From a virus: 21,781 nt of DNA. The first letter of the stretch is position 1. Each line of letters starts with the position of its first letter. The notes beneath the pieces were generated by a model that had not been told where the DNA came from, searched no databases, and saw only the letters and a list, made by a program, of their open reading frames with translations. The stretch is from IMG/VR virus record IMGVR_UViG_3300034198_019201, positions 1 through 21,781 of that record, one strand, 5' to 3'. Positions 376 through 21,781 of the stretch are shown here, in pieces. The translations under genes and the position numbers were made by a program.

Positions 376-2232
376 ATGTCTAAAAAGATAGCCTTAATAC
401 AAGTTTGGTTTGGGCCATTTCCTTCTTATTTTTATACCCATCTCAAAACATGCAAAAATCAAAGCCAAAACATAGACTTCTTTATATTCACAGATCAAAA
501 CATAAGCTCAAACTCATCCAATATAAAGATCTGTTATATGAACGAAAAGATATTAAAGCGCATTGTCGCCGACAAAACGTCCATACAGATTACAGAAGAC
601 ATATCTTCAGGACGAAAGATATGTGATTACAGACCTTTGTACGGAATCCTTTTTGAACACTATTTTTGCGACTATGATTATATAGGATTTTATGATATTG
701 ATTGTATGTTTGGCGATATGTATGATTTATTGCTTCCTTTTTTAGATAAAGAGATAATATCTATTGGAGATGATACTTATTTTAAAGGAGTTCGGGGGCC
801 ATTTACAATATGGAAAAATATACCTTTTTACAATAACTTCTATAAAAACATAAACGACTACGAAACTTTCTTAAAAGACCCAGTATATCATGGAGTAGAC
901 GAACATCATTTCAACAACGCATTATCTCAACAATCAATACAAATAACAAGCTTCTCGGAACTATCCAACACACGCAAAAACGGTAGATACATTGGAGAAG
1001 CAGTTTTAAAAGGTAAAAAATTATACATCCAAGATCGCGAATCTCTATTATCGCACTTTTATTATAAAAAAGATCTAGGAATACAAGATGATACTCTCTT
1101 TTATAACAAAAAAGTATTATTAGAAGATTTCTATTGGGTAGTATATTTTGATAAAAAATATGAGCCTGTCGCGAAACAAATGTTGAACACAATAAGTATG
1201 TTTTCTAATCGCAAATGTATTATTTATAGTCTTAATTATGATTTGGACGTTACAAGAGATTTAGATTTGAACAAAGAACAGTTTATATCTGTGCCTTTTT
1301 ATATATATAAAGACGATAATCAAGATATTGACTTATTAAGAAATATAAAACCATTCTGTCTAAAAGACAGTTGCGAAAGATATCCAAATACTAATTTTGT
1401 ATATATTGATACTGATTGTTTTTTAACTGTTACCGCCGATCATATTGCTAATTATGTTTCCAAGCTTAAAAATCATCCTTTAATTAATCTTAATTTATAC
1501 GATAGCGTATTTCATACAAACTTTTTTGGCGACGGCAAACCTTTGCACGGTCTACAAGTATTATCGGACGCTTTAAATATTCCTATTTCAATATATCCAA
1601 GAAGAAAAGCTAATGTTATAGTTTACAACTCTAATCATCATAACTTTTTCTCGGAAGCTACAGAGATGTATGAAAAATATAAAAATACAAGACCAGGAAT
1701 ATTCGCTTTGCACGATGAAGACGCTTTTAATATATTATTGTCTAAGTACAACTACACAGAAAGCCTACCGACAGTAGATATCGAAGAAACAAATAAGTTA
1801 TACATTGAAAAATATAATGAATACGGCGCATCTAATTGTTTTTCGGCCCACAAGATCTTGCCAAAACATATAAATAACATTTTTTGCTTTCATAGAGTAA
1901 AATCTATACCAGAATTCAAAGACATAAAAGAAAACTATCTTAAAACTGTATTCGCCCATGATGAATTATATATAACCCAAAATGAAAAAGACGATCTTGT
2001 GTTAAGCAGAAAAAATTTTATGCCCGAAAAGCAATTTTCTCAGCTTGTTAATCTAACTATCTACGATAAACGTGGAAATTTATTGTATGATTTTATCAAT
2101 GTTGAGATATTTAAATACTTTCATTTTTGCGTTGGAAAAGTAGCCGCCAATCTAGATTATGTTTACATTAAAATAACTGAACCAGAATCTGGAAATATTT
2201 TGTTCAGTAAATTCACTCAAATTCATAAATGA
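376..2232 (+). CDS. Twin GT-A-type glycosyltransferase (DUF6625-like N-terminal half)
   Basis: A 618-aa soluble protein with no signal peptide or membrane segment visible. Residues about 1-260 resemble the DUF6625 family of putative glycosyltransferases: a beta-strand start (KIALIQVWFG), a conserved 'CDYRPLYG' stretch, and a DxD-type metal/nucleotide-sugar motif at D107-I-D109 in 'GFYDIDCMFGD'. A second unit, about 250-500, begins with a new beta strand (WVVYFDKKYEP) and has its own DxD motif, D345-T-D347 in 'VYIDTDCF', so the chain appears to hold two GT-A folds. About 530-618 looks like a small beta-rich appendage. Acceptor and donor sugars cannot be read from sequence. The start ATG is preceded by TATAATAAAAT without a Shine-Dalgarno. 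The stop overlaps the next start (ATGA at 2229-2232), so the two proteins are probably translationally coupled. Family assignment of the second half is the weaker part. Confidence 0.75.
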   Translation: MSKKIALIQVWFGPFPSYFYTHLKTCKNQSQNIDFFIFTDQNISSNSSNIKICYMNEKILKRIVADKTSIQITEDISSGRKICDYRPLYGILFEHYFCDYDYIGFYDIDCMFGDMYDLLLPFLDKEIISIGDDTYFKGVRGPFTIWKNIPFYNNFYKNINDYETFLKDPVYHGVDEHHFNNALSQQSIQITSFSELSNTRKNGRYIGEAVLKGKKLYIQDRESLLSHFYYKKDLGIQDDTLFYNKKVLLEDFYWVVYFDKKYEPVAKQMLNTISMFSNRKCIIYSLNYDLDVTRDLDLNKEQFISVPFYIYKDDNQDIDLLRNIKPFCLKDSCERYPNTNFVYIDTDCFLTVTADHIANYVSKLKNHPLINLNLYDSVFHTNFFGDGKPLHGLQVLSDALNIPISIYPRRKANVIVYNSNHHNFFSEATEMYEKYKNTRPGIFALHDEDAFNILLSKYNYTESLPTVDIEETNKLYIEKYNEYGASNCFSAHKILPKHINNIFCFHRVKSIPEFKDIKENYLKTVFAHDELYITQNEKDDLVLSRKNFMPEKQFSQLVNLTIYDKRGNLLYDFINVEIFKYFHFCVGKVAANLDYVYIKITEPESGNILFSKFTQIHK

Positions 2233-5200
2233 AAATCTTAGGCCACGCGAGTTACGTTGGAAATACAGGTTACAACGCTCATTCAAAAGGATTTTTTCGC
2301 GCACTTAGTAAAAAAGTGCAAACCAAAGTAAGGAATTTTTCAATTGGTCCTAATTGGAGCGGTTACGAAGGCAAAAATAATAATCCTCATGGCACAGACG
2401 TTAATGATTTAGATAAAAATATACTTATTTCTCAAAGTCTTTTTGATGCCGATAGAAATTTAAATGATTTTCCTATTTATAATTATGATGGATCTTATGT
2501 TCCAGATATTAACATTATTCTTAATAGCGTAAACCATTATTATTTTTATCAATCTTACAAAGGTCCAAAAATTGGGTACGTTGTTTGGGAAAACACATTA
2601 TATCCAGAAGATTTTTTTGCAAAATTATTAGAATACGATCAAGTTTGGGTTCCTACTGAATGGCAAGCAAAAATTACCATCGATCAAGGTATTTCAGCAG
2701 ATAAAGTAAAAATAGTACGAGAAGCTGTAGATCCAGCAGTTTATCAAACAATAACTTCTCCATTATCTAATGATATTTTTACATTTGTTTTATTTGGATC
2801 TTGGGGAGATCGAAAAAGCACGAAAGAAATTATAAAAAGTTTTATAAAAGTTTTCGGCGGCAACAATAAAGTTCAATTAATTCTTTCTGTCGCCAATACT
2901 TTTAATAATGATGGATTTGCAAATACTCATGAAAGATTAAAAGCGAATAATCTGTATGCGCCCAACATAAAAGTCGTTGATTTTGTTCCAAGAGAAGATT
3001 ATATCCGATATATTCAAAACGCACACGTTTTTCTTTCTTGTGCGCGTGGAGAAGGATGGAATATACCTCTTATTGAAGCAATGGCTTGCGGTACACCTTC
3101 TATATATTCCAATTGTAGTGGGCAACTTGAATTTGCACAAAATTTAGGAATACCAATTGATATAAAAGGATTAGTTTTAGCTAAGAATTTTGAAGAAAAT
3201 AAAAATCAAAACTCACCGGGGTACTGGTACGAGCCTGATTTTGAAGATTTAGAAAAAAAGATGATGGATGCGTACTTAAACCATTCTTTTTACAAGCAAA
3301 AAGCTATTAAAGAATCTAAATATATTAGAGAAACTTTTACATGGGAAAATGCTGCTAATGCAGCAGTTGAACATTTAAAAGAATTTGCACATAAGAAAGT
3401 TAGGTTAGAAGTTAGTTGTAGTTTTGTTGGAACTGGAGGTTTAAATATATTTTGTCAAGAAATGTTGCCTAACTTAAATGAAATTTGCGAAGTAAAAGTT
3501 AGAAATTATACAATTGGTAAAAATTGGAAAGGTTATAATCTAAATCCGCACGACTTGGACATAGAACAACACCATAAAAAAATTTTACATAAACAAACTT
3601 TATATAATTCTGACAATTCAAGATCAGATTATCCAATCTATAATTACAAAAAACAATTTGCGCCAAATGTTAACCTTGTCATGGAAGGTTTGAATCATTT
3701 TTATTTTTATGATGATTACGTTGGTCCGAAAATTGCCTATACGATGTATGAAACAACTAAATTTCCAGATAACTTTTTAAATCAATTAAAAACTTTTGAC
3801 CAGTTATGGATTCCTTCTCAATGGCAAAAAAATAATTTAATCAATCAAAATTTTCCAGAAAATAAATTGAAAGTTGTTCCTTTAGGCGTTGATGAAAATG
3901 TATTTTTTCCTATTTCAGAAAAGTTTAAAAAGTTTACCTTTGTTTTGATTGGTAGATGGGACGCTAGAAAAAGCACCATGGAAATTATAAGGTCTTTTAA
4001 AGACAATTTTGAAAATAATGACAATGTTGAACTTTTATTATTAGTAGATAATCCATTCGACATTGATGGACTGGGATCTACAGAAAATAGATTACAACAT
4101 TACAATTTAAATTGTAAAAATATTAAAGTTTTGTCGTTCACAACGAAAGAAGATTATTTATATATATTGCAACGCTCTCATGTTTTCTTATCATGTTCTC
4201 GCGCAGAAGGTTGGAACCTTCCTCTCATAGAATCTATGGCTTGTGGAATAGTATCAATCTATTCTAACTGTAGCGCACAACTAGAATTTGCAAAAAATCT
4301 TGGAGTTTCGATCAATGTGCTTGGCGAAGAACCTGCTTCCAATTATAATGCAAGACAATTTGATAAAGATATAGTTGGAAATTATTATATTCCAGATTTT
4401 AAAGATTTGTCGAACAAGATGATTGACATATACAACAATTATTCTTATTATAAAGACATAGCAATTAGAGAATCAGAAATCATAAGAAATAATTTTTCTT
4501 GGAAAAAGTCTTCTCAAAAAGCTTTTAGTTACATAAACGATTTAATCACAAATATGAAAAAAATAGAATTCGTTAGATTTGTAGGTGATGACAAAGGTAT
4601 TGAATACAAAAACATTAGCGATAAAAAAATTAAAATAAAAGTTAAAATATTCGATACCCAAAAGAATATTTACGTTTATGAAAGTGATTTAACTTTAGAT
4701 CCACAGATTTTGTATTTTTCCAGTTTGAATAGTGATTACAAGCCCGAAGAGAAATTAAGATTTGAAATTTTTGACGATTTTGACATGCTTCAATTGTCTA
4801 TAGAAAAAGATTTTCCCAAGATTAAACGTTTAGATTATGTGATCATAAGAGGTCGTGAACATATTGATAATGAAGACTTTTCTTTTTTATACAATAAAAG
4901 AAACAACATGTTTCATTTTGAACCTACTAAAAAAGAATTTAAAAATCTTGACTTTGTAATTAAAGATTTAAGTTCTAATTTAACTTTTACATCATTCTTT
5001 AATAAAGATTTTGTTTTTGCAAAGGGTTTTTCTTATTTTACCAGTCCAATCACCACAAGAGATTTAGATTTGAATTTTTTTAGTGGTTTGAAAGTTTTGG
5101 CGTTTAAAAATAAAAAACTATTCTTTGAAATAGATGTTCCAATCGATAAAGACTTTTATAATAAAAGCTCATGCCGCAAATTCTTATATACTGAAGATAA

Positions 5201-6701
5201 TTCAGTAAATATTTTAGATAACTTTTTTACTCAAAAGATAGATTTTTATAATTACGATTTCTATTCTAAACACATTCGCGAAAAAGATGTTGTCGTCGAT
5301 ATTGGGGCCAGTTGTGGAAGTTTTATAGATTTTTGTTTATCTAAAAATATAAGTAAAATTATAGCTTTAGAACCGTCTCCATCTTTTAGCATACTAAATA
5401 ATACATTTGAAAATGAAACAAGAGTAATAGCTGAGAATAAAGCGATTTCTATAGATAATAAGAATAAAAAATTTGTAGTTGAAAGTCTGACTACGTTAAG
5501 CCACATAACTGAAACCGATACATCAGATAAAAATTATATAGAAGTAAAATGCATAAGTCTTGACGCTCTAATTTTTAAATATAATTTAAATAAAATAGAT
5601 GTTTTGAAAATGGATATTGAAGGGTATGAATATGAGATTTTTAAAAACTTGCAAAATGATACCTTAAATAATATAAATAAAATTATCTTAGAATTTCATG
5701 CAAATGAAAATAATAAATTAGATATCATCAAAGAAAAACTATTAAATTGCGGATACAAATTAGAAACATTTGATTTATCTTTTAATAAAAAAGATACTTC
5801 AACAATCGATAAAGGATATATGTTGGCTTATCGAAATGATATATATGAAATTGTAAACGAATCATCTTCTTTGGGCGATGCGATAGCTTGGACAGGAATT
5901 GTAGACTCTTTTCAAAAACAAAAACAACAACAAGTTAATTTTTATACTCCGTTTAAAGACCTTTTTGAATCTCAATATAAAAATATTAATTTTTATAACT
6001 ATTGGGAAAAACCAATAGACTCTTCTAGATGTTATTCTATTGGATGCTTTGACGTAAACGGCACAAAATGGAATCAATTGAGCCTTCAAGAAATCGCTTC
6101 TAAAATATTAAATATTAAATATGAAGAATCTATAACCAAAGTCGCTTTGCCACAAAATCTTAAGAACAATTTCAAGAGAAAGTATGTTTGTATTGGATCT
6201 CTTTCTACATCTCAAGCTAAGTTTTGGAATAATCCTTCTGGCTGGACAAGAACTGTAGAATATTTAAATAGTTTGGGTTATGATGTAGCATCTATAGATA
6301 AAAATAATAATATTGGTTGCGGAGAATATATTAATTATATTCCTGTCAACTCTATAGACAAAACGGGAGATATTCCATTATCCGAAAGAATTAATGATTT
6401 ATATTTTTGCGATTTCTTTATTGGTTTAGGATCTGGCTTGTCTTGGCTGGCTTGGGCGGTTGGAAAGCCAGTTATTATGATATCTGGATTTTCAGATCCT
6501 GTTTCTGAATTTTATACTCCATATAGAGTAATTAATAAAAATGTATGCAATAGCTGTTGGAACGATCCTAATTTGACTTTCGATAAGGGAAATTGGGCGT
6601 GGTGTCCTAGAGATAAAAATTTTGAATGTTCTAAAGAGATTTCATTTGACATGGTGAAAGAAAAAATAGATCTTTGTATAAAGGATTTAAATAGCAAGTG
6701 A
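2229..6701 (+). CDS. Giant multidomain glycosyltransferase/FkbM methyltransferase/heptosyltransferase-like protein
   Basis: A 1490-aa polypeptide with at least five modules. Residues about 1-390 and about 392-765 are two GT4 (GT-B fold) glycosyltransferases that are clear tandem duplicates. Both carry the E-x7-E signature (E275-E283 in EGWNIPLIE; E660-E668 in EGWNLPLIE). About 770-1005 is a beta-rich segment of unknown role. About 1005-1205 is an FkbM-type SAM-dependent methyltransferase, with motif I 'DIGASCGSF' (from D1024), 'LEPSPS', and 'KMDIEGYE' (D1129, E1131). About 1210-1490 resembles autotransporter O-heptosyltransferases (TibC/AAH type): 'SLGDAIAW' near L1215, 'LGSGLSWLAWAVGKPV', and a C-terminal Cys4 metal finger (C1440, C1443, C1459, C1467). 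The expected role is assembly of a methylated glycan or direct protein O-glycosylation; the substrate is unknown. ATGA coupling upstream and GTGA coupling downstream place it in the middle of a coupled operon. Confidence 0.85.
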   Translation: MKILGHASYVGNTGYNAHSKGFFRALSKKVQTKVRNFSIGPNWSGYEGKNNNPHGTDVNDLDKNILISQSLFDADRNLNDFPIYNYDGSYVPDINIILNSVNHYYFYQSYKGPKIGYVVWENTLYPEDFFAKLLEYDQVWVPTEWQAKITIDQGISADKVKIVREAVDPAVYQTITSPLSNDIFTFVLFGSWGDRKSTKEIIKSFIKVFGGNNKVQLILSVANTFNNDGFANTHERLKANNLYAPNIKVVDFVPREDYIRYIQNAHVFLSCARGEGWNIPLIEAMACGTPSIYSNCSGQLEFAQNLGIPIDIKGLVLAKNFEENKNQNSPGYWYEPDFEDLEKKMMDAYLNHSFYKQKAIKESKYIRETFTWENAANAAVEHLKEFAHKKVRLEVSCSFVGTGGLNIFCQEMLPNLNEICEVKVRNYTIGKNWKGYNLNPHDLDIEQHHKKILHKQTLYNSDNSRSDYPIYNYKKQFAPNVNLVMEGLNHFYFYDDYVGPKIAYTMYETTKFPDNFLNQLKTFDQLWIPSQWQKNNLINQNFPENKLKVVPLGVDENVFFPISEKFKKFTFVLIGRWDARKSTMEIIRSFKDNFENNDNVELLLLVDNPFDIDGLGSTENRLQHYNLNCKNIKVLSFTTKEDYLYILQRSHVFLSCSRAEGWNLPLIESMACGIVSIYSNCSAQLEFAKNLGVSINVLGEEPASNYNARQFDKDIVGNYYIPDFKDLSNKMIDIYNNYSYYKDIAIRESEIIRNNFSWKKSSQKAFSYINDLITNMKKIEFVRFVGDDKGIEYKNISDKKIKIKVKIFDTQKNIYVYESDLTLDPQILYFSSLNSDYKPEEKLRFEIFDDFDMLQLSIEKDFPKIKRLDYVIIRGREHIDNEDFSFLYNKRNNMFHFEPTKKEFKNLDFVIKDLSSNLTFTSFFNKDFVFAKGFSYFTSPITTRDLDLNFFSGLKVLAFKNKKLFFEIDVPIDKDFYNKSSCRKFLYTEDNSVNILDNFFTQKIDFYNYDFYSKHIREKDVVVDIGASCGSFIDFCLSKNISKIIALEPSPSFSILNNTFENETRVIAENKAISIDNKNKKFVVESLTTLSHITETDTSDKNYIEVKCISLDALIFKYNLNKIDVLKMDIEGYEYEIFKNLQNDTLNNINKIILEFHANENNKLDIIKEKLLNCGYKLETFDLSFNKKDTSTIDKGYMLAYRNDIYEIVNESSSLGDAIAWTGIVDSFQKQKQQQVNFYTPFKDLFESQYKNINFYNYWEKPIDSSRCYSIGCFDVNGTKWNQLSLQEIASKILNIKYEESITKVALPQNLKNNFKRKYVCIGSLSTSQAKFWNNPSGWTRTVEYLNSLGYDVASIDKNNNIGCGEYINYIPVNSIDKTGDIPLSERINDLYFCDFFIGLGSGLSWLAWAVGKPVIMISGFSDPVSEFYTPYRVINKNVCNSCWNDPNLTFDKGNWAWCPRDKNFECSKEISFDMVKEKIDLCIKDLNSK

Positions 6702-7522
6702 AAACAAAAATTATTTTAACCACTTCATCTTTGGGAGATACTATTGGTGCGGTGGCTCAAGTAGATAAGTATCAAAAATTAACAAATGATGAGGTGGGAT
6801 TTTTTATTAATAACTCTTTTGTTTGTCTTTTTGAAAAATCATATCCTAATATAAGTTTTAATCCAGTAAACTTTGAATGCGAGCAACAAAAATCAATAAA
6901 TTTTTATTTTGACCGCCCATTACAGAAAGGATTTTCTGATGATCTTAAAATGGAATATGAAGAAATAAATACTTTGATTGATAATTATTCAGGAGTTAGA
7001 CCAATAAAGCAAAAGTACATAACAATCTCTACACATTCGACTCATCAAGGTCGTTATTGGAATAATAATGACGGTTGGAATGATCTGATTAAATATTTAA
7101 AATCAAAATATGATATTTCTGCTGTTTGCATAGATAGAGATTACTCTTTTGGTATAAAATCTTGCATGAATCCAATACCTAAAAAGGCGATAAATAGATG
7201 CGGTTTAAATTTAAAAGAATGTATTAATTATGTCAATCATTCTGAATTTCATATAGGAACTTCTAATGGATTATCATGGTTGGCTCATGGCATAGGAAAA
7301 CATGTCGTGTTAATTTCAAACATTACTAAACCTTGGTGCGAATTCACAAAAAATATAACGAGAATTTACGATGATTCTATTTGTAATGGATGTTTAAATG
7401 AAGAAAAATTTGATCGTTCTGATTGGTTGTGGTGTCCAAGAAAAAAGAATTTTGAATGCACAAGAAAAATATCATTTGAAAGCATTAAATCAAAAATAGA
7501 CAATTGTATTATAAATTTATGA
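6698..7522 (+). CDS. TibC/AAH-like O-heptosyltransferase homologue
   Basis: A 274-aa protein homologous to the last about 280 residues of the preceding 1490-aa protein. It shows the same landmarks: 'SSLGDTIGAV' at the N terminus, a 'QGRYWNN..GW' stretch matching 'QAKFWNNPSGW', 'GTSNGLSWLAHGIGKHVVLIS', and a terminal Cys4 finger (C229, C232, C246, C254; spacing C-x2-C-x13-C-x7-C). In the characterised TibC/AAH family these enzymes transfer heptose to serines of repetitive adhesins, and the Cys cluster binds a metal; transfer of that activity to this protein is inference. The start is GTG at 6698, overlapping the previous TGA (GTGA). No ATG exists near the homologous N terminus, and the reading begins directly with the KTKIILTTSSLGD strand. 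The stop overlaps the next ATG (ATGA). Confidence 0.75.
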   Translation: MKTKIILTTSSLGDTIGAVAQVDKYQKLTNDEVGFFINNSFVCLFEKSYPNISFNPVNFECEQQKSINFYFDRPLQKGFSDDLKMEYEEINTLIDNYSGVRPIKQKYITISTHSTHQGRYWNNNDGWNDLIKYLKSKYDISAVCIDRDYSFGIKSCMNPIPKKAINRCGLNLKECINYVNHSEFHIGTSNGLSWLAHGIGKHVVLISNITKPWCEFTKNITRIYDDSICNGCLNEEKFDRSDWLWCPRKKNFECTRKISFESIKSKIDNCIINL

Positions 7523-7902
7523 TTACTATTTTGGTGGACGAAGCTTACGCTTTTGATTATTTAAGCATTTTAGAGATTAAAAAACAAAAATCTTCTAATA
7601 ATGTTCAAGCGTGGTTGAATTGTTGGTCGCATTTGCAAAATCAATTTGAGCGTGAAAAATGGTTATCAATGATATATTCACAAGAATATAAAGATATGAT
7701 AAACACCAATCAATTAACTTTTGAAGCCGTAGATAAAGCTAAAAATAATGAAGTAACTGCTCAGTATGTTGATTATTGTAATTATCAAAGACACATAGCT
7801 AAAGAAAATTTTCAAAAGAAATTTTTTAATACTAATTTATCTGAGTCGAAGATAGGTTATGAAAAATATACTGATAGTAATCACACTGTTTCTCTAATGT
7901 GA
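7519..7902 (+). CDS. Small DUF6165-like protein of the sugar operon
   Basis: A 127-aa protein starting at ATG 7519, which overlaps the previous stop as ATGA. An in-frame TTG at 7504 would add five residues but is less likely, given the ATGA pattern used throughout this operon. Features are the N-terminal 'DYLSILEIKKQK' and the C-terminal 'NYQRHIAKENFQ...SKIGYEKY'. These resemble DUF6165, a family of about 127-aa proteins with 'DKLTILEIK' and a late 'NDERA...INEL' block. Function is unknown, and membership is judged by eye. Its last 71 bp overlap the 3' end of the minus-strand glycosyltransferase. The conserved-looking C-terminal block lies in that overlap, so the overlap appears real rather than a run-on. 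Confidence 0.6.
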   Translation: MITILVDEAYAFDYLSILEIKKQKSSNNVQAWLNCWSHLQNQFEREKWLSMIYSQEYKDMINTNQLTFEAVDKAKNNEVTAQYVDYCNYQRHIAKENFQKKFFNTNLSESKIGYEKYTDSNHTVSLM

Positions 7903-8914
7903 ATTTTGAAATTGCGTTTCTATAGCAATTTTCTGGATTGATAAATTTATCTATATTTTGAACAGCATAAATAATATCATTTATGCTGGAACACCTTAGT
8001 CCAGTTTCTCCTTGCGATACGGTTTCAGTAAATCCGCCAAAATTTGTTGTTATTGTCGGAGTTCCTGAAAATTGAGCTTCAATAACGGTCCAATTGCATG
8101 GTTCAATAAATAAAGAAGGCGCAAATAAAAATTTAGCATCACTAAGTAAATACATTCTTTTGATTGGATCAACAAAGCCAACAAATTGACAATATCTAGT
8201 ATCTTTTAAACCAAGTATATTTGGACCAGCAAAAATTATATCTTGTTTTAAATCGTTACATATATCATAAGCAACTTTTGCTCCTTTCGCTTCTGTAATC
8301 CTGCCTAAAAACAGGGCGGTATTAGATTTGTTTTTCTTATAAAGAAAATCATTAGGATCAAAACCGGGATAAACTACAAATTCATTTCCTATATTTATAT
8401 TGGTTGAAGAATATCCATGCATTTTGTGCATTTGACTATGAGTTTCAAACATTTTAACTGGCGCGAACATACTATCGTAACCAATGCTAGGTTCTACTAC
8501 AATAGCTTTTTTATAAAAATGCTTAACACATTGTTCATGAGCAAATCCAAACCAACATAATATAAATTCTTTATCTGATCTTATTCTTTTATTTAATTCT
8601 GATGTGCAATTGTTATTAAATATTTTTACAGCTTCTGTATTTATATCTTGATTGAATCCCTTAGTCTCCCAATCATTTAAGTTGCCATAACTCTTTTTTA
8701 ATATATCATTATTAGTAACATTAATATGTTCTGTGCAATTAACGCTAGAGTTTTCATGACCATAATGATAAACAGTGTGACCTCTTTTGGTCATTTCATC
8801 ACAAAATTTGTAAACCTTTTGAACAAACGCACACAAAGATATGTTTTTACTTGTAGGTGAGTACGGAACACTTAGACAATGAAAAACCATACAATATAGT
8901 GTAACTCCTTTCAT
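7832..8914 (-). CDS. GT4-family glycosyltransferase
   Basis: A 360-aa GT-B enzyme and the only convincing minus-strand gene in the window. The N-terminal acceptor domain carries 'CAFVQKVYKFCDEMTKRGHTVYHYGHE'-type sequence (read here in part). The C-terminal Glycos_transf_1 domain carries 'ALFLGRITEAKGAKVA', a 'FVGFVDPIKRMYLLSDAKFLFAPS' region and the E-x7-E motif E271-E279 (EPCNWTVIE), then 'GGFTETV' and 'GETGLRC'. It probably transfers a sugar from a nucleotide donor to a glycan or protein. Two starts are possible: ATG at 8914, or ATG at 8890, which fits the usual GT4 N terminus (MVFHCLSVPYS) better and lies about 14 nt after an AAAGGAG sequence. The 8914 start is only 3 bp from the divergent PhoH start. 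Confidence 0.8.
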   Translation of the reverse strand: MKGVTLYCMVFHCLSVPYSPTSKNISLCAFVQKVYKFCDEMTKRGHTVYHYGHENSSVNCTEHINVTNNDILKKSYGNLNDWETKGFNQDINTEAVKIFNNNCTSELNKRIRSDKEFILCWFGFAHEQCVKHFYKKAIVVEPSIGYDSMFAPVKMFETHSQMHKMHGYSSTNINIGNEFVVYPGFDPNDFLYKKNKSNTALFLGRITEAKGAKVAYDICNDLKQDIIFAGPNILGLKDTRYCQFVGFVDPIKRMYLLSDAKFLFAPSLFIEPCNWTVIEAQFSGTPTITTNFGGFTETVSQGETGLRCSSINDIIYAVQNIDKFINPENCYRNAISKFTLEKQCDYYQYIFHNLSSTQIN

Positions 8915-8917
8915 AAC

Positions 8918-9667
8918 ATGTCAACCAAAAAGAAGAAAATTCAAAAAGAAAAAGAAGATCTAAACGAAATCATTGCTGATAATCATTTTAGATCAGTTAA
9001 ATTGAACATTAAAAACTTCAATTTAACAGATAAGCAAAAAAGTTTCGCGCAGATAGCATTTGATAAGAATACTAAAATTATTTTTATCAATGGTCCAGCA
9101 GGTTCTTCTAAAACCTTTTTAGCAGTCTACTGTGCGCTTCATATTTTAAATATGAATTCGAGAGCAGAATTGAAATATATAAGAACGATAGCGGAATCTG
9201 GAGAAAGAGCGTTAGGATCTCTTCCTGGGACTGTAGATGAAAAGTTTAATCCATTTATGATGCCTTTATATGATAAATTGGATGAGCTACTTCCTATGAG
9301 TCAATCAAAATACTTAGAAACCAATGGTTTTATCGAAGCTTTACCAATTAATTTCTTAAGAGGAGCAACTTGGAATGATAAAGTGATTATCGCAGACGAA
9401 TCTCAAAATTATAGCAGTAAAGAATTAGTCACGCTTCTTACTCGTATTGGGGAAAATACTAAAATGTTTATCTGCGGTGATGCTATGCAATCAGATATTG
9501 GCAACAAATCTGGTTTCATGAGAGTGTACGATCTTTTCAATAACAAAGAAAGCGAAGACAGAGGAATTTATTGTTTCCAATTTGATGAAGAAGATATCAT
9601 GCGTAGTGAAATATTAAAGTACATAGTTTCAGTGTTTAAAAAATTAGATAAAACTAATATACAGTGA
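8918..9667 (+). CDS. phoH: PhoH-like P-loop ATPase
   Basis: A 249-aa PhoH-family protein. Walker A is 'GPAGSSKT' (residues 59-66), Walker B 'VIIADESQN' (D160, E161; the cellular consensus is closer to ILDEAQN), and the sensor region is 'LTRIGENTKMFICGDAMQSDI'. The N-terminal about 30 residues are Lys/Glu-rich. PhoH homologues are common in aquatic phages; they bind ATP and are related to the helicase domain of RecD-like enzymes, but their phage role is not settled. The gene opens a tightly overlapping operon leading to the terminase. There is no Shine-Dalgarno, and the start lies 3 bp from a divergent ATG, so its promoter must sit inside the neighbouring glycosyltransferase gene. Confidence 0.88.
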   Translation: MSTKKKKIQKEKEDLNEIIADNHFRSVKLNIKNFNLTDKQKSFAQIAFDKNTKIIFINGPAGSSKTFLAVYCALHILNMNSRAELKYIRTIAESGERALGSLPGTVDEKFNPFMMPLYDKLDELLPMSQSKYLETNGFIEALPINFLRGATWNDKVIIADESQNYSSKELVTLLTRIGENTKMFICGDAMQSDIGNKSGFMRVYDLFNNKESEDRGIYCFQFDEEDIMRSEILKYIVSVFKKLDKTNIQ

Positions 9668-10759: not shown

Positions 10760-11828
10760 TTTATCTGAAGAGCAACAAGTATTTATCAATAAAAAAATAG
10801 AAGAAGGGCTAACAGATTATATTGTTATAGCTAATCTTTTATTTAAAAGAGAAGATTTGCATGGCCGTTCAAAAGAATCAAAGCTAGTAAGAGATTATAT
10901 GATCTCTTCTGGGTCCATAAGCAAGAAAGAAAAAGCCAAACCAAAAGCGGACCCAGAAGCACTTACTGCGGCGCACATAGAATTTATAGACAGTAATATC
11001 AGAACAGGAATAACTCCAAAACAGATCACAGAATTATTATTTTCTAAAGAATTAGCAGGAGTATCTAACCTAAATGTTTTTATTACGCCTCAATACAGAG
11101 CAGTACACAAATACATCAAAGAAAAGCATCCAGATTATTTGGTTGAAAGCGAATCAGCAGTTAATGAAAAGTATGTCGTGCCAAGAAGTTTATCTTCTGC
11201 CATCAAGAAAGTAAATAAATGGGCTGGACAAGATTTATCTGAGGATAAATTAACATTGCAGCATAGAAAATATTTAGAAAAGCTATTGACTTATTTAAAT
11301 AGTCCACGCTTTGTACAAAACTACGATTCTTATCGTAGCTCTAATGATAAAGATCTTTTTGAAGCTGAGTTTGTACGTTCAGTTTGGGACAAGCCAGATC
11401 TTACGATTGATGAAACTAATTTATATATAAATGTTTGCATGGATTATATCAATCTTAAACAAATTGATATGAAAAAAAATAAAGTAAATGAAATGTTCAA
11501 TGACACTCAAGAACAAAAAGATTTTACAATGCGATTGACTGAAGTTTTGAAGACCATTTCAGAAGAATATAATCAATGCGCCCAACGTATAGATAAGTCT
11601 TTGCAGAAATTGAATGGCGAACGATCTAAACGTATAGAATCTCATCAACAAAAGAACGCTTCGATACTTAGTTTGGTAGAATTATTCCAAGACGAAAACG
11701 AAAGAAAAATGATGATTCAAATTGCAGAAATGCAAAAGAAAGTTGTCAAAGAAGAAGCTGATAGATTGGAAACGATGTCTGCATGGAAAGCTAGAATTTT
11801 AGGAATTACAAAAGAAGATGCTATATGA
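10752..11828 (+). CDS. Hypothetical protein, possible small terminase subunit
   Basis: A 358-aa soluble, charged, helical protein that I do not recognise by sequence. The N terminus contains two similar helical units, about 1-52 ('LSEEQQVFINKKIEEGLT...IANLLF') and about 72-130 ('LTAAHIEFIDSNIRTGIT...ITELLF'). Each looks like a small helix-turn-helix module, joined by a Lys/Pro-rich linker. The C-terminal about 170-358 is long-helical and coiled-coil-like ('MQKKVVKEEADRLETM'). DNA-binding modules followed by an oligomerising helical part, and a position two genes before the large terminase, fit a small terminase or packaging adaptor, but this is inference from context. The stop overlaps the next start as ATGA. 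Confidence 0.5.
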   Translation: MSDLSEEQQVFINKKIEEGLTDYIVIANLLFKREDLHGRSKESKLVRDYMISSGSISKKEKAKPKADPEALTAAHIEFIDSNIRTGITPKQITELLFSKELAGVSNLNVFITPQYRAVHKYIKEKHPDYLVESESAVNEKYVVPRSLSSAIKKVNKWAGQDLSEDKLTLQHRKYLEKLLTYLNSPRFVQNYDSYRSSNDKDLFEAEFVRSVWDKPDLTIDETNLYINVCMDYINLKQIDMKKNKVNEMFNDTQEQKDFTMRLTEVLKTISEEYNQCAQRIDKSLQKLNGERSKRIESHQQKNASILSLVELFQDENERKMMIQIAEMQKKVVKEEADRLETMSAWKARILGITKEDAI

Positions 11829-12745
11829 TCGAATGTAAAGTCTGTCAAGAATCTTTTGTAAATGATAAATGCTTTCACGCCCATTTAAAGAAACATAATC
11901 TATATCAAGGAGAGTATTATTGTAAATATTATCCTCGCTTTTCATTTTTTTATAAAAAACAAATACCATTTAAAAATAAAAGAGAATATTTTGAAACAGA
12001 GTTCCTTGATTATAATGAATTTTCTGAATGGGAAAGATCAGAGAATCAAGAAATCGTAAAAACAAAATGCGTATCCATGCTAAAAAATAGAATACAAGAA
12101 AAAAATTATCATTACGCACCTTTTCATAATGAATTGAAGACTTTGGATCTTCCAAATATAAATATATTCAAGAAGCATTTTGGATCTTATAATTCTGTTT
12201 GTAAGTTGCTGGATAAAGAGCCGCTTTTTAATAAGCCTTTGCCAAAAACTTTTAATAAAGTTTCTTTAAAGAATGAAACCATGCTTGTCGATACTCGCGA
12301 ACAAGATCCTTTAGAATTTCCTAATGTAAAGATTGAAAAATTATTTATTGGTGATTATTTAATGAACGCTCAAGAATATAATTATACTTTTGTAGATAGA
12401 AAAAGTGAAAATGACTTTTTAGGAACTTTAGCTTCTGGAGTTGATCGTTTTGAAAGAGAAATCCAAAGGACTTTTGAATTGGAAGGATATTTATTTATTG
12501 TAATAGAGTCCACAATAGATAGTATAATAGATAATCATCGAAAATACAAAAGAAAAACGAACTTAGAATACGTCTTTCATAACATGCGCCATTTGACTCA
12601 TAAATATCCTAGACATGTTCAGTTTGTATTTACGGGCAGTCGAAAAAAATCAATCGAAATTATACCAAAGCTTTTATATTTTGGAAAAGATTTATGGCAA
12701 GTAGATTTACAATACTTTTTAGATCATGAGTTGGGAAACAGGTAA
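11825..12745 (+). CDS. C2H2 zinc finger fused to ERCC4/XPF-type nuclease
   Basis: A 306-aa protein. The N terminus is a classical C2H2 finger: C4-x2-C7-x12-H20-x3-H24, with the hydrophobic core residues F11 and F17 at consensus spacing. A middle segment (about 30-145) is Lys/aromatic-rich and unassigned. Residues about 150-290 form an ERCC4-type nuclease: 'VDTREQDPLEF' (D156, R158, E159), 'IGDYL' (D177) and the XPF motif variant 'DRKSENDF' (D191-R192-K193...D197, Asp replacing the usual Glu of ERKxxxD). It should cut branched or flap DNA. Wedged between the possible small terminase (ATGA overlap) and the large terminase (20-bp overlap), it may trim or resolve branched replicative DNA before packaging. 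Fold assignment is strong; the role is inference. Confidence 0.8.
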   Translation: MIECKVCQESFVNDKCFHAHLKKHNLYQGEYYCKYYPRFSFFYKKQIPFKNKREYFETEFLDYNEFSEWERSENQEIVKTKCVSMLKNRIQEKNYHYAPFHNELKTLDLPNINIFKKHFGSYNSVCKLLDKEPLFNKPLPKTFNKVSLKNETMLVDTREQDPLEFPNVKIEKLFIGDYLMNAQEYNYTFVDRKSENDFLGTLASGVDRFEREIQRTFELEGYLFIVIESTIDSIIDNHRKYKRKTNLEYVFHNMRHLTHKYPRHVQFVFTGSRKKSIEIIPKLLYFGKDLWQVDLQYFLDHELGNR

Positions 12746-14591
12746 CCAAAGAATAAGAAAAAATCAGTTTATTTCTAATGAAGAGCTTTCTGAAAAGCAA
12801 GGCTTCTTGGAAGAACGTGAAGCGAAGCTTTTGTTTTATCAATTCTTGAGAAACAATATTACTTTTACTACTGATTTAATTACAGGAGTTAAATTGTTTC
12901 CATTTCAACATATGGCTGTCAAGTCAATGTTGGAAAGCGATTATTTTTTAGGAGTTTGGTCGCGTGGCATGAGTAAAAGTTATACTACTGGTATTTTTGC
13001 CATTCTAGACGCGATATTAAATCAAGGAATAGAGATAGGTATTATGTCTCGTTCTTTTCGTCAGTCAAAAATGATATTTAAAAAGATAGAAGATATTGCC
13101 GCCAAGCCTGAAGCCTATCTTTTAAAACAATGTATTACACATGTATCAAAAAATAATGATGAATGGCTAATGGAAATAGGTAAAAGCCGTATTCGCGCAT
13201 TGCCTTTAGGTGATGGTGAAAAACTTCGTGGTTTTCGTTTTCATCGTATTATTATTGACGAGTTTCTATTGATGCCTGAACGCATTTATAACGAAGTTAT
13301 TGTACCATTCTTGTCCGTAGTTCAAAATCCAACTCAACGAGAAGAATTGTATAATCTAGAAACTCAATTGATTGAGAAGGGCGAGATGAAGGAGGAAGAT
13401 AGATATGTTTGGCCCAACAATAAACTGATTGCTCTATCATCAGCGTCTTTTAAATTTGAATATCTTTATAAATTATACGAGCAGTATGATAATTTAATAC
13501 ATAATCCTAAGCCAACAGATTCTTCTAAGCGTTGTGTTATGCAATTTTCTTACGATTGTGCGCCAGTTCAGTTATACGATCAGAATCTAATCAATCAAGC
13601 AAAATCAACAATGAGTGAATCGCAGTTCCAAAGAGAATTTGGCGCTCAATTTACAGATGATAGTTCTGGATATTTTAAAATATCTAAAATGGCGCTATGT
13701 ACAGTACCTGATGGAGAAACACCTTCTGTAGAAGTAGTAGGTAATCCAGAAGATGAATATGTAATAGCCGTTGATCCTTCTTGGTCAGAAACTGAAGGGT
13801 CGGACGATTTTGCTATACAAGTAATAAAAGTTAATTACGAAAAACAAATGGGTACGTTAGTGCATTCGTATGCATTAGCTGGAGCTTCACTAAAAGATCA
13901 TATTAAATATTTCTTATATATTCTCAAAAATTTCAATGTTGTTGCTATATGTATGGATTATAATGGTGGTGTTCAGTTTATGAATTCCTGTAATGAAAGC
14001 GAACTGTTTAAAGATGAGAAGATTGAGTTAAAATGCGTAACAACAGAGTTTGAAAGACCAGAAGAATACCAATCTAATCTATATGCCGCAAAATCAGAAT
14101 ATAATAAAACAGATTATAGAACAGTTTTCATGAGAAAACCAACATCGGCTTGGATTCGTCAAGCGAACGAATTATTGCAAGCTAATTTTGACCATCGTCG
14201 CATATATTTTGCAAGCAGAGCTATGGATGATCATTACAAGTCACAAATAAACAAAAGAATAGGAATAGAAAATCTTAAATTTTCTAACGTTTCTGATTTG
14301 GATAAAGCGGATGTCGGCGCAAGAATGATTGACTTTGTTGAACATTTGTCAGATATGATACTTTTAACAAAAACAGAATGTGCGCTTATACAAATAACAA
14401 CTTCTGCACAAGGTATGCAAAATTTTGATCTTCCTGCTAATCTAAAACGTAAATCAGGTCCAGACAAACCAAGAAAAGATAGTTATTCAGCATTAGTATT
14501 AGGAAATTGGATGACAAAGATTATAATTGATATGAGAACTGTTACTGTAGAAGATAATACAGAAACATTTACTCCTATGTTTATAGCGTAA
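12726..14591 (+). CDS. terL: Large terminase subunit (packaging ATPase/nuclease)
   Basis: A 621-aa terminase. The ATPase half has a Walker A-like loop 'WSRGMSKSYTTG' (S79-S85, K84) and Walker B 'IIIDEF' (D178, E179). The RNase H-fold nuclease half begins at 'YVIAVDPSW' (D350), with a second acidic strand 'CMDYNGG' (D411) and a third acidic cluster at D524/D526/D529. Length and layout match T4 gp17-like motors. It docks on the portal, cuts concatemeric DNA and drives packaging. The Walker A has Ser where the usual Gly precedes Lys; R80-G81 precede it as in other terminases with divergent P-loops. It starts inside the nuclease gene (20-bp overlap) and is followed by a 49-bp gap holding 12-bp repeats, then the portal gene. 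Confidence 0.92.
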   Translation: MSWETGNQRIRKNQFISNEELSEKQGFLEEREAKLLFYQFLRNNITFTTDLITGVKLFPFQHMAVKSMLESDYFLGVWSRGMSKSYTTGIFAILDAILNQGIEIGIMSRSFRQSKMIFKKIEDIAAKPEAYLLKQCITHVSKNNDEWLMEIGKSRIRALPLGDGEKLRGFRFHRIIIDEFLLMPERIYNEVIVPFLSVVQNPTQREELYNLETQLIEKGEMKEEDRYVWPNNKLIALSSASFKFEYLYKLYEQYDNLIHNPKPTDSSKRCVMQFSYDCAPVQLYDQNLINQAKSTMSESQFQREFGAQFTDDSSGYFKISKMALCTVPDGETPSVEVVGNPEDEYVIAVDPSWSETEGSDDFAIQVIKVNYEKQMGTLVHSYALAGASLKDHIKYFLYILKNFNVVAICMDYNGGVQFMNSCNESELFKDEKIELKCVTTEFERPEEYQSNLYAAKSEYNKTDYRTVFMRKPTSAWIRQANELLQANFDHRRIYFASRAMDDHYKSQINKRIGIENLKFSNVSDLDKADVGARMIDFVEHLSDMILLTKTECALIQITTSAQGMQNFDLPANLKRKSGPDKPRKDSYSALVLGNWMTKIIIDMRTVTVEDNTETFTPMFIA

Positions 14592-18954: not shown

Positions 18955-20124
18955 ATGAAAATCGTTTTAAAAAGAACAGACGAACAAGTTGAACTAATCA
19001 AGGCTATGGCTTCTCGCAACCGTGAGGTTGCTTATGAAGCTCAAATTGCTTTAGCTCAGTTCATTGGACCCGTCCTCGCTGAAGTTATTAACAACGCTCC
19101 TACCGTTTCTAATCTCTTCACCAGCCTCCAATTCAACGCTGAAGATAATCCTTCAATTCCTTTGGATCTCTACTACGACATTTTTGACGAAGATTATATC
19201 AAGGTCTATAGTCAATCTGTTGCCGGTGGTCTTCCTCAGAACATCGTTCAACCTACAGCTTCAGAGCTAAAGGTTGCTACTTACAAGCTCGACAGCGCCG
19301 TCGCTTTCGACAAGAAGTACGCTGCCAAGAGCCGTCTAGATGTAGTTAGCAAGACTTTCACTCGCGTAGCTCAAGAAGTTATGCTAAAGCAAGAAAGAAC
19401 TTCAGCTAATCTTCTTCTTACCGCTCTAGCTCAAGCTTCTACTGGTAATGATGCCACTGCCGCTAATAACTATCACGTTTTCCGTACTGCTGCTGCTAGT
19501 CGTTTCGTTCTTAACGACTTGAACAAGTTGTTCACCAAGATTAAGCGCATTAACGCTTCATTCGTCGGTGGTACTCCTTCTGGCGCTCGCAGAGGATTGA
19601 CTGACCTCATCGTTTCTCCTGAAATCGTTGAGGAAATTCGTGGTATGGCTTATAACCCAATCAATACCAAGGTATCTCCAGTAGCTACTCCTAGCACAAG
19701 TTATAGTGCCGGTAACGCTCCTGTAGTCGCTACAGATGCTATTCGTGATCAAATCTTCAGCCAATCTGGTCTACCTGAATTCTATGGTGTTAGCATCATG
19801 GAAATTCTTGAACTCGGAATTGGTAAGAGATTCAACACCATCTTTGATACCGTCGCTGGTAGCACAAGTTATGCTGGTCACTATTCAATCACCACATCTG
19901 CCGCTGCGTTCGATGGAGCCACTGAAGAAGTTATCATCGGTCTCGACAGAAGCCGTGATTCACTAATCCGTGCCGTAGCCGTTGACTCTGATACTGGATC
20001 TGAATTCAATCTCACTGCTGATGACCAATATACTCTCCGTCAAGGAAAGATTGGTTACTATGGCGGTCTAGAAGAAGGACGTATGGTTCTCGACAATCGT
20101 GCGTTGGTCGGTCTAATTGTCTAA
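18955..20124 (+). CDS. Major capsid protein (HK97-fold type)
   Basis: A 389-aa protein that, by position and character, is the major capsid protein. It follows the protease/scaffold and decoration genes, has a helical N-terminal arm, then segments typical of HK97-like coats ('VASKTFTRVAQEV'-like spine helix region, 'LNDLNKLFTKIKRI', 'GLTDLIVSPEIVEEIR', 'LPEFYGVSIMEILELG', 'GEEG/GLEEGRMVLDNRALVGLIV'-type C-terminal strand). It lacks an obvious long delta domain, consistent with a separate scaffold. Its codon bias is the strongest in the window (GCT/GCC, AAG, CTC, TTC, AAC), fitting the most abundant virion protein. The upstream AT-rich stretch contains TATAAAAT (18944-18951). A strong terminator lies 23 bp downstream. 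Confidence 0.85.
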   Translation: MKIVLKRTDEQVELIKAMASRNREVAYEAQIALAQFIGPVLAEVINNAPTVSNLFTSLQFNAEDNPSIPLDLYYDIFDEDYIKVYSQSVAGGLPQNIVQPTASELKVATYKLDSAVAFDKKYAAKSRLDVVSKTFTRVAQEVMLKQERTSANLLLTALAQASTGNDATAANNYHVFRTAAASRFVLNDLNKLFTKIKRINASFVGGTPSGARRGLTDLIVSPEIVEEIRGMAYNPINTKVSPVATPSTSYSAGNAPVVATDAIRDQIFSQSGLPEFYGVSIMEILELGIGKRFNTIFDTVAGSTSYAGHYSITTSAAAFDGATEEVIIGLDRSRDSLIRAVAVDSDTGSEFNLTADDQYTLRQGKIGYYGGLEEGRMVLDNRALVGLIV

Positions 20125-21268: not shown

Positions 21269-21781
21269 ATGTCTATTAATGTCAATACTTCCTCTAATTC
21301 TAATCAAATAAATGTAACCGTTGGAGGCGGATCGAATTCAACTGTTGTTGACAGCAGTAATAATAATAATATATTAATTCAATCTGTTGCGCCAGAAGGT
21401 TCTTTAACTAGAATAGTAGAAAGAGGTCCATCAGGAAGTTCTGGTACTAGCGGTTCTTCTGGAAGTAGTGGCACAAGTGGAACTTCTGGATCAAGCGGTT
21501 CATCAGGAACTTCTGGTTCATCAGGTTCTAGCGGCAGTTCTGGTACAAGTGGAACGTCTGGTTCAAGTGGAAGTTCTGGTACAAGCGGAACATCTGGAAG
21601 TTCTGGTTCAAGCGGTTCTTCTGGATCAAGCGGATCTTCAGGAAGTAGTGGAAGCAGTGGAACATCAGGAAGCTGCGGTACTTCTGGAAGCAGCGGTACA
21701 AGTGGAACTTCAGGATCAAGCGGAAGTTCTGGAAAAGATGGTACTTCTGGATCAAGTGGAAGCTCTGGAAGCTCTGGAAGC
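21269..21781 (+). CDS. Gly-Ser/Thr-repeat fibre-like protein, 3' end outside the window
   Basis: ATG at 21269 opens a frame with no stop to the window end (171 codons visible). Residues 1-52 are Asn/Ser/Val-rich ('MSINVNTSSNSNQINVTVGGG' region, read in part) and include 'ILIQSVAPEGSLTRIVERG'. From residue 53 onward the chain is G-x-y triplets, almost all GSS or GTS, starting GPS, with GSC (C136) and GKD (K156, D157) as the only visible exceptions. This is collagen-like in periodicity but lacks Pro. Such repeats occur in phage tail-fibre and structural proteins, commonly before a C-terminal folding or receptor-binding domain, which would lie beyond this window. The dense Ser/Thr content makes it a possible O-glycosylation substrate. 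Confidence 0.8.
   Translation, partial: MSINVNTSSNSNQINVTVGGGSNSTVVDSSNNNNILIQSVAPEGSLTRIVERGPSGSSGTSGSSGSSGTSGTSGSSGSSGTSGSSGSSGSSGTSGTSGSSGSSGTSGTSGSSGSSGSSGSSGSSGSSGSSGTSGSCGTSGSSGTSGTSGSSGSSGKDGTSGSSGSSGSSGS
21425..21781 (+). repeat. Degenerate 9-bp-triplet repeat encoding (Gly-Ser/Thr-Ser)n
   Basis: About 119 consecutive codons repeat Gly-x-y every nine bases to the end of the window. At DNA level the codons vary (GGT/GGA/GGC; TCT/TCA/AGT/AGC; ACT/ACA/ACG), so the protein periodicity is kept while perfect DNA repeats are avoided. A shadow open frame on the opposite strand (21528-21755) is a by-product of the repeat. Confidence 0.9.

Follow-up and report, generated by a model that had tools for sequence, protein, structure and literature searches.

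A phage gene fusing two GT4 domains, an FkbM methyltransferase and an Aah/TibC-type O-heptosyltransferase: a candidate glycan synthase for collagen-like fibres

The sequence studied here is the viral record IMGVR_UViG_3300034198_019201 of IMG/VR (positions 1 to 21,781), and the whole of this 21,781-nucleotide stretch is called the window below. It carries a fusion gene whose open reading frame begins with ATG, has no internal stop and joins two GT4 glycosyltransferase domains, two beta segments, an FkbM-type methyltransferase domain and a catalytic domain of the BAHT (Aah/TibC) O-heptosyltransferase family (Table 1). The start of the gene is overlapped by 4 bp by the end of the upstream DUF6625 gene and its end is overlapped, again by 4 bp, by the start of a second BAHT gene; the three genes apparently form one operon. 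An earlier note, made by a model from the letters and their translated frames, had described a single uninterrupted frame of 1490 amino acids and named a series of catalytic residues. The frame was confirmed, the residues (E275/E283, E660/E668, D1024, D1129/E1131 and C1440-C1467) all lie exactly where they had been placed, and profile matches (PF00534, TIGR01444) bear out the two GT4 domains and the FkbM methyltransferase announced in the note.

Table 1. Coordinates of the features discussed in the text (residue numbers are those of the fusion protein unless otherwise stated)
Feature	Coordinates	Strand	Details
DUF6625 protein, 618 aa	376..2232	+	PF20330, 109 bits; C-terminal half without assignment
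Fusion gene GT4-GT4-beta-beta-FkbM-BAHT	2229..6701	+	1490 aa; profile searches, full-length relatives L001-L008
GT4 domain a	2229..3398	+	residues 1-390; PF00534; E-x7-E at 275/283
GT4 domain b	3399..4562	+	residues 391-778; PF00534; E-x7-E at 660/668
Beta segment 1	4563..4820	+	residues 779-864; occupies the position of the TibC N-terminal beta-barrel
Beta segment 2	4821..5228	+	residues 865-1000; low-confidence all-beta model; absent from L007
FkbM-type S-adenosylmethionine methyltransferase domain	5229..5798	+	residues 1001-1190; TIGR01444, PF05050
BAHT (Aah/TibC) O-heptosyltransferase catalytic domain	5847..6671	+	residues 1207-1481; TIGR04414, phmmer, Foldseek, key residues
Iron-finger motif	6546..6629	+	C1440, C1443, C1459, C1467 = TibC C339, C342, C358, C370; PMC4358343
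Second BAHT paralogue, 274 aa, without barrel	6698..7522	+	TIGR04414 169.9 bits, under cut-off 200
132-aa protein	7504..7902	+	retained at the right-hand border of many sister cassettes that differ elsewhere
GT4 (phrog_3408)	7832..8914	-	bounds variable cassette
PhoH	8918..9667	+	PF02562, 161 bits; conserved boundary gene
Ser/Thr-rich collagen-like protein, 5' part, proposed acceptor	21269..21781	+	(Gly-Ser/Thr-Ser/Thr)n; PF01391; cut by contig end

The GT9-like C-terminal end of the protein had been called heptosyltransferase-like in the note, a label that can be made more specific. The TIGR04414 profile ('autotransporter strand-loop-strand O-heptosyltransferase') matches residues 1207-1481 with 265.6 bits (cut-off 200), phmmer relates the fusion to TibC (PDB 4rap; E = 3e-54) and residues 779-1490, as modelled by AlphaFold (mean predicted local distance difference test score, pLDDT, of 78.5), retrieve TibC in Foldseek with an E-value of 1e-24 and about 35% identity, the WaaC structures being ranked far below it. 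A lipopolysaccharide (LPS) heptosyltransferase (WaaC/WaaF, GT9) was rejected, as the LPS heptosyltransferase I profile TIGR02193 reaches 12.6 bits for a cut-off of 185. From these comparisons, this end is identified as a protein Ser-O-heptosyltransferase of the BAHT family and not as an LPS enzyme. The catalytic and donor-binding residues are kept (D1217, T1327, K1331, R1387 and W1406, equivalent to TibC D110, T226, K230, R286 and W305), and the stereoselectivity position P300 of TibC is G1401 in the fusion. TibC attaches heptose to serines in passengers rich in repeats; mutating D110, K230, R286, W305 or any of the iron-binding Cys abolishes or strongly cuts its activity, and deleting its N-terminal beta-barrel abolishes it (PMC4358343).

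PF00534 matches the fusion twice (90 bits) and the E-x7-E motif is present in both copies, as EGWNIPLIE (E275 to E283) and EGWNLPLIE (E660 to E668). Since the two copies are 44% identical to each other, they are taken to be paralogues that arose by tandem duplication. The phmmer search of this pair against solved structures found no sequence relatives; for domain a, the AlphaFold model matches GT4 enzymes, including a virus glycosyltransferase (3oy2) and a capsule multienzyme (8qoy). TIGR01444 matches residues 1021-1157 (80.8 bits, cut-off 37.7), with the S-adenosylmethionine motif VVVDIGASCG around D1024 and D1129/E1131 within KMDIEGYE, and this FkbM domain is placed between the beta segments and the BAHT catalytic domain. 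Beta segment 1 is predicted to be all-beta (pLDDT mostly 83-95) and adjoins BAHT directly in the relative L007, whereas the Pfam scan of beta segment 2 gave no matches. An intact BAHT with a contiguous barrel was partly dropped, as FkbM lies between residues 779-864 and the catalytic domain, and these residues align weakly with other barrels in hhalign (probability 5.9). Because of this weak profile signal, we infer from position and predicted fold that these residues may be the barrel, behind which beta segment 2 and FkbM would have been inserted.

Full-length relatives of the fusion are encoded by eight other IMG/VR contigs (L001-L008, 72-98% identity, with L001 and L003 near-identical to each other). 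The search for the same domain order in other genomes that the note had proposed thus finds it in seven further contigs, the eighth (L007) lacking beta segment 2 and FkbM (approximately residues 865-1205). The note had also envisaged that the frame could be an assembly artefact joining separate genes or that its homologues could always be split; the first is rejected, since the fusion recurs in independent contigs where the frame is conserved, and the second does not hold, as these relatives are fused over their full length. Neither is the gene an isolated oddity. BAHT relatives were confirmed in at least 577 stretches from uncultivated phages and many of them are fusions: besides stand-alone BAHT, the types include GT4-BAHT, GT2-BAHT, GT9-GT4-BAHT, GT9-FkbM-BAHT, GT4-GT2-FkbM-BAHT, GT4-GT2-BAHT-FkbM and a GT4-BAHT with a PIG-L deacetylase. 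The cultured Microcystis phage Mel-JY01 has a partial relative annotated just as 'methyltransferase FkbM'. One contig (L060, 4052-10819) encodes a chain of 2255 amino acids with GT4, methyltransferase, PLOD-type (collagen) glycosyltransferase, DUF6625, FkbM and BAHT domains. The gene for this chain lies 13 bp upstream of a collagen-like gene (10832-14008).

The position of the fusion gene upstream of phoH made it possible to gather sister contigs by that gene. BAHT is found upstream of phoH in all 54 of those with more than 3.5 kb of sequence there, although some are closely related and the 54 do not represent as many independent events. Twelve kinds of BAHT-bearing protein, the stand-alone form included, occur in these cassettes, whose domains are arranged in ten or more different ways. 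The remainder of the cassette is also variable, the same domain kinds being fused or split at one genome position, which fits the 'assembly-line' glycan enzyme suggested in the note. In L004, L008 and L009, the flanks are about 97% identical to those of the window and the cassette 77-84%; L008, which lacks the second BAHT, is 97.6% identical from 7862 onward and 79% over the cassette. We propose from these alignments that the glycan locus is swapped and re-shuffled among closely related phages. One possible interpretation of such a locus is that it alters host surface glycans (LPS or O-chain) and thereby blocks superinfection by other phages. The hypervariable glycosyltransferase islands of pelagimyophages have been interpreted as host-surface modification (PMC7029224), and surface-glycan clusters typically contain GT4, GT9 and FkbM domains. 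Yet, the sole constant domain of the cassette belongs to a family of protein Ser-O-transferases and it tracks collagen-like repeats, in bacteria as well, so that this interpretation seems unlikely.

These repeats are also found in the window. No autotransporter gene, a frequent neighbour of BAHT, was recognized among the proteins of the window scanned with Pfam, the window being a fragment; instead, it has a collagen-like gene (PF01391, 65.8 bits for a cut-off of 27.2). The window and several sister contigs end within the repeat tract, and the repeats probably break assemblies in this phage group. Longer copies of the repeat protein are present in L382-L388, after the same head genes as in the window. 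The syntenic protein of L385, and also that of L030, has a C-terminal Peptidase_S74 fibre-chaperone domain; the window copy is cut before its end. In phages, proteins of the collagen-like type are considered to form part of tail fibres (PMC3368898).

The Gly-Ser/Thr repeats occur in 41 of 50 BAHT-bearing viral records, hand-chosen from the fetched loci with longer ones favoured and a few near-duplicates included, and in none of 40 random records drawn via an arbitrary 16-mer. When both sets are limited to 15-260 kb, the counts are 39/47 and 0/23 (p = 4e-12). The repeat gene lies at most two genes from BAHT in 22 of 40 loci (10.6 expected, p = 5e-5), while direct adjacency is not significant (9 versus 5.7 expected, p = 0.09). 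In the reverse direction, BAHT is present in 15 of 48 viral records selected for their repeats and in none of the 40 random ones. Another possibility is that BAHT glycosylates some other phage or host protein, the collagen repeats being no more than a frequent feature of these large aquatic phages. Many repeat-bearing fragments indeed lack BAHT and the repeat gene and the enzyme are often several genes apart. A set of 40 records selected for FkbM, used as a control for glycan-rich phages and sharing one record (G017) with the first set, speaks against this: 19 of the 25 records that have BAHT contain repeats, against none of the 15 that lack it (p = 1e-6), with a sub-cut-off match of 168 bits (G539) counted as BAHT-bearing and two weak hits of 29 and 15 bits as lacking it. 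Bacterial BAHT loci, which also lie near Ser/Gly repeat proteins, speak against it too, and we judge this possibility to be about as improbable as the modification of host glycans.

The eight bacterial loci were found by BAHT sequence; all of them have a repeat gene in the fetched stretch, in six cases at no more than 1 kb from BAHT, and several of these genes encode short proteins that look secreted. A survey of the class to which Methylomicrobium sp. RS1 belongs (L102 comes from this genome), made to enlarge this bacterial test, found BAHT over the cut-off in 2 of 369 genomes. In six bacterial genomes (L096-L100 and L102), a stand-alone BAHT lies near short proteins largely made up of Gly-Ser/Thr repeats, several of which have Asp/Glu-rich tails and lipoprotein-like starts. 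In these six genomes, BAHT and its neighbours look like the bacterial counterpart of the enzyme-substrate pair proposed for the phages.

Taken together, the comparisons rather favor a phage-encoded, recombining protein O-glycan synthase that would act on the phage's own collagen-like fibre, a reading to which we give a probability of roughly 0.6. The acceptor, the donor sugars, the order of steps and the biological purpose are deduced indirectly. Since the last domain is a BAHT, it likely catalyzes the first, protein-attaching step, with the GT4 domains extending the glycan and FkbM methylating it. In that case, BAHT would attach the first sugar, probably a heptose taken from host ADP-heptose, to Ser of the (Gly-Ser/Thr-Ser/Thr)n stalk encoded from 21269 onward, the two GT4 domains would lengthen the chain and the FkbM domain would methylate one of its sugars. 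The DUF6625 protein and the second BAHT may provide extra steps or partners. Exchange of the locus would give each strain a different virion glycan, in the manner of bacterial O-antigens, and the purpose could be the diversification of the particle surface, for example for receptor choice or virion shielding.

Several observations weigh against this proposal, in addition to the weak barrel alignment. The position of TibC R286 is variable among other phage BAHTs, and some members of the family may therefore use a sugar other than heptose. The repeat gene of the window is 14 kb away from the fusion gene. Among the 48 repeat-selected records, 33 lack BAHT, most of them fragments, and so do 5 of the 14 records of at least 80 kb, one of these five not matching the longer repeat pattern; other enzymes or missing sequence have thus to be allowed for. 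Finally, the records counted are not phylogenetically independent. A role of the fusion in hypermodifying phage DNA is far less credible than any of the above, as the characterized BAHT members are protein-Ser transferases (PMC4358343) and the Pfam scan of proteins from the window revealed no base-modification genes, even though DNA-modifying glycosyltransferases have been described in phages (Pyle et al. 2024, as cited in PMC12619734).

The neighbouring genes provide some further context. DUF6625 is fused within the BAHT multi-domain protein of L060, which we read as a Rosetta-stone link of DUF6625 to the BAHT pathway. In its alignment with TibC, the second BAHT keeps the Asp and all four Cys; K230 is replaced by R and R286 by C, so its role may differ, and it might work with a different sugar or serve as a partner subunit. 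In many sister cassettes, the gene that comes next likewise encodes a short BAHT of this kind. The Pfam scan of the 132-amino-acid protein gave no matches. A major-capsid-like protein (18955-20124) has a weak phrog_1005 match and no tblastn matches among 50,697 phage records, from which the phage group looks uncultivated. In L386 (8349-11531) and L388 (5815-8997), the terminase large subunit has 1060 amino acids instead of 621, with its homology in two pieces, perhaps because of an intein or another insertion.

A wider hypothesis, for and against which we see the chances as even, is that 'virion serotype' loci exist in large aquatic phages, with an invariant BAHT that starts the glycan on collagen-like stalks and a freely recombining set of fused glycosyltransferases and methyltransferases that makes the rest differ from strain to strain. 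The main role of the BAHT family would then be to glycosylate Gly-Ser/Thr collagen-like repeats, in phages as in bacteria, the autotransporter enzymes being a special case. If this is true, the repeats that are common but unexplained in environmental phages would gain a function, and the BAHT family would reach beyond bacterial adhesins to phage particles. Phages would also have their own equivalent of O-antigen loci, a hotspot at which close relatives swap sugar-coat machinery. There would be consequences for host range, for how particles avoid being bound or recognized and for the use of single-chain enzymes in glyco-engineering. The idea can be tested now, because the cultured phage Mel-JY01 has both a BAHT fusion and Gly-Ser/Thr repeats. 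A BAHT-built glycan on phage collagen-like fibres seems not to have been described before: searches of titles and abstracts in the open-access literature found nothing that links BAHT to phages or to collagen-like repeats, the exact repeat strings retrieved no paper there, and among the papers listed TIGR04414 turned up by name in just one, on Cronobacter.

Among known systems, the multi-domain capsule synthase of Actinobacillus pleuropneumoniae (8qoy) similarly has several transferase domains per chain and is, going by E-value, the best structural match to the GT4 pair, but it makes a capsule polymer instead of a protein glycan and the overall TM-score is low (0.28). Mycobacteriophage virions bear glycans on capsid and tail-tube subunits according to Freeman et al. 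2023 as cited in PMC12619734; these subunits are not collagen-like stalks. The chlorovirus PBCV-1 protein A064R (638 amino acids, GT-GT-methyltransferase) is also a single viral chain, which adds two sugars and methylates the last one in the glycan of the virus's own capsid (PMC7826918, PMC9614988); unlike the fusion, it comes from an alga virus, uses other glycosyltransferase families, extends an N-glycan and has no protein-attaching domain. The mimivirus L230 collagen glucosyltransferase is a viral enzyme that glycosylates the collagen-like proteins of the virus itself (PMC9614988), and a PLOD-type domain is present in one phage BAHT fusion, that of L060; nevertheless, L230 belongs to a eukaryotic virus, targets hydroxylysine and is unrelated to BAHT. 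TibC/Aah (TIGR04414; PDB 4rap, 4rb4) shares the catalytic domain, the Asp base, the donor residues and the four-Cys iron finger. TibC is a stand-alone enzyme of about 400 amino acids with a contiguous barrel and an autotransporter acceptor, whereas the BAHT of the fusion is joined to two GT4 domains, has FkbM after its barrel-like segment, is encoded near phage head genes and likely has a collagen-like fibre as its acceptor.

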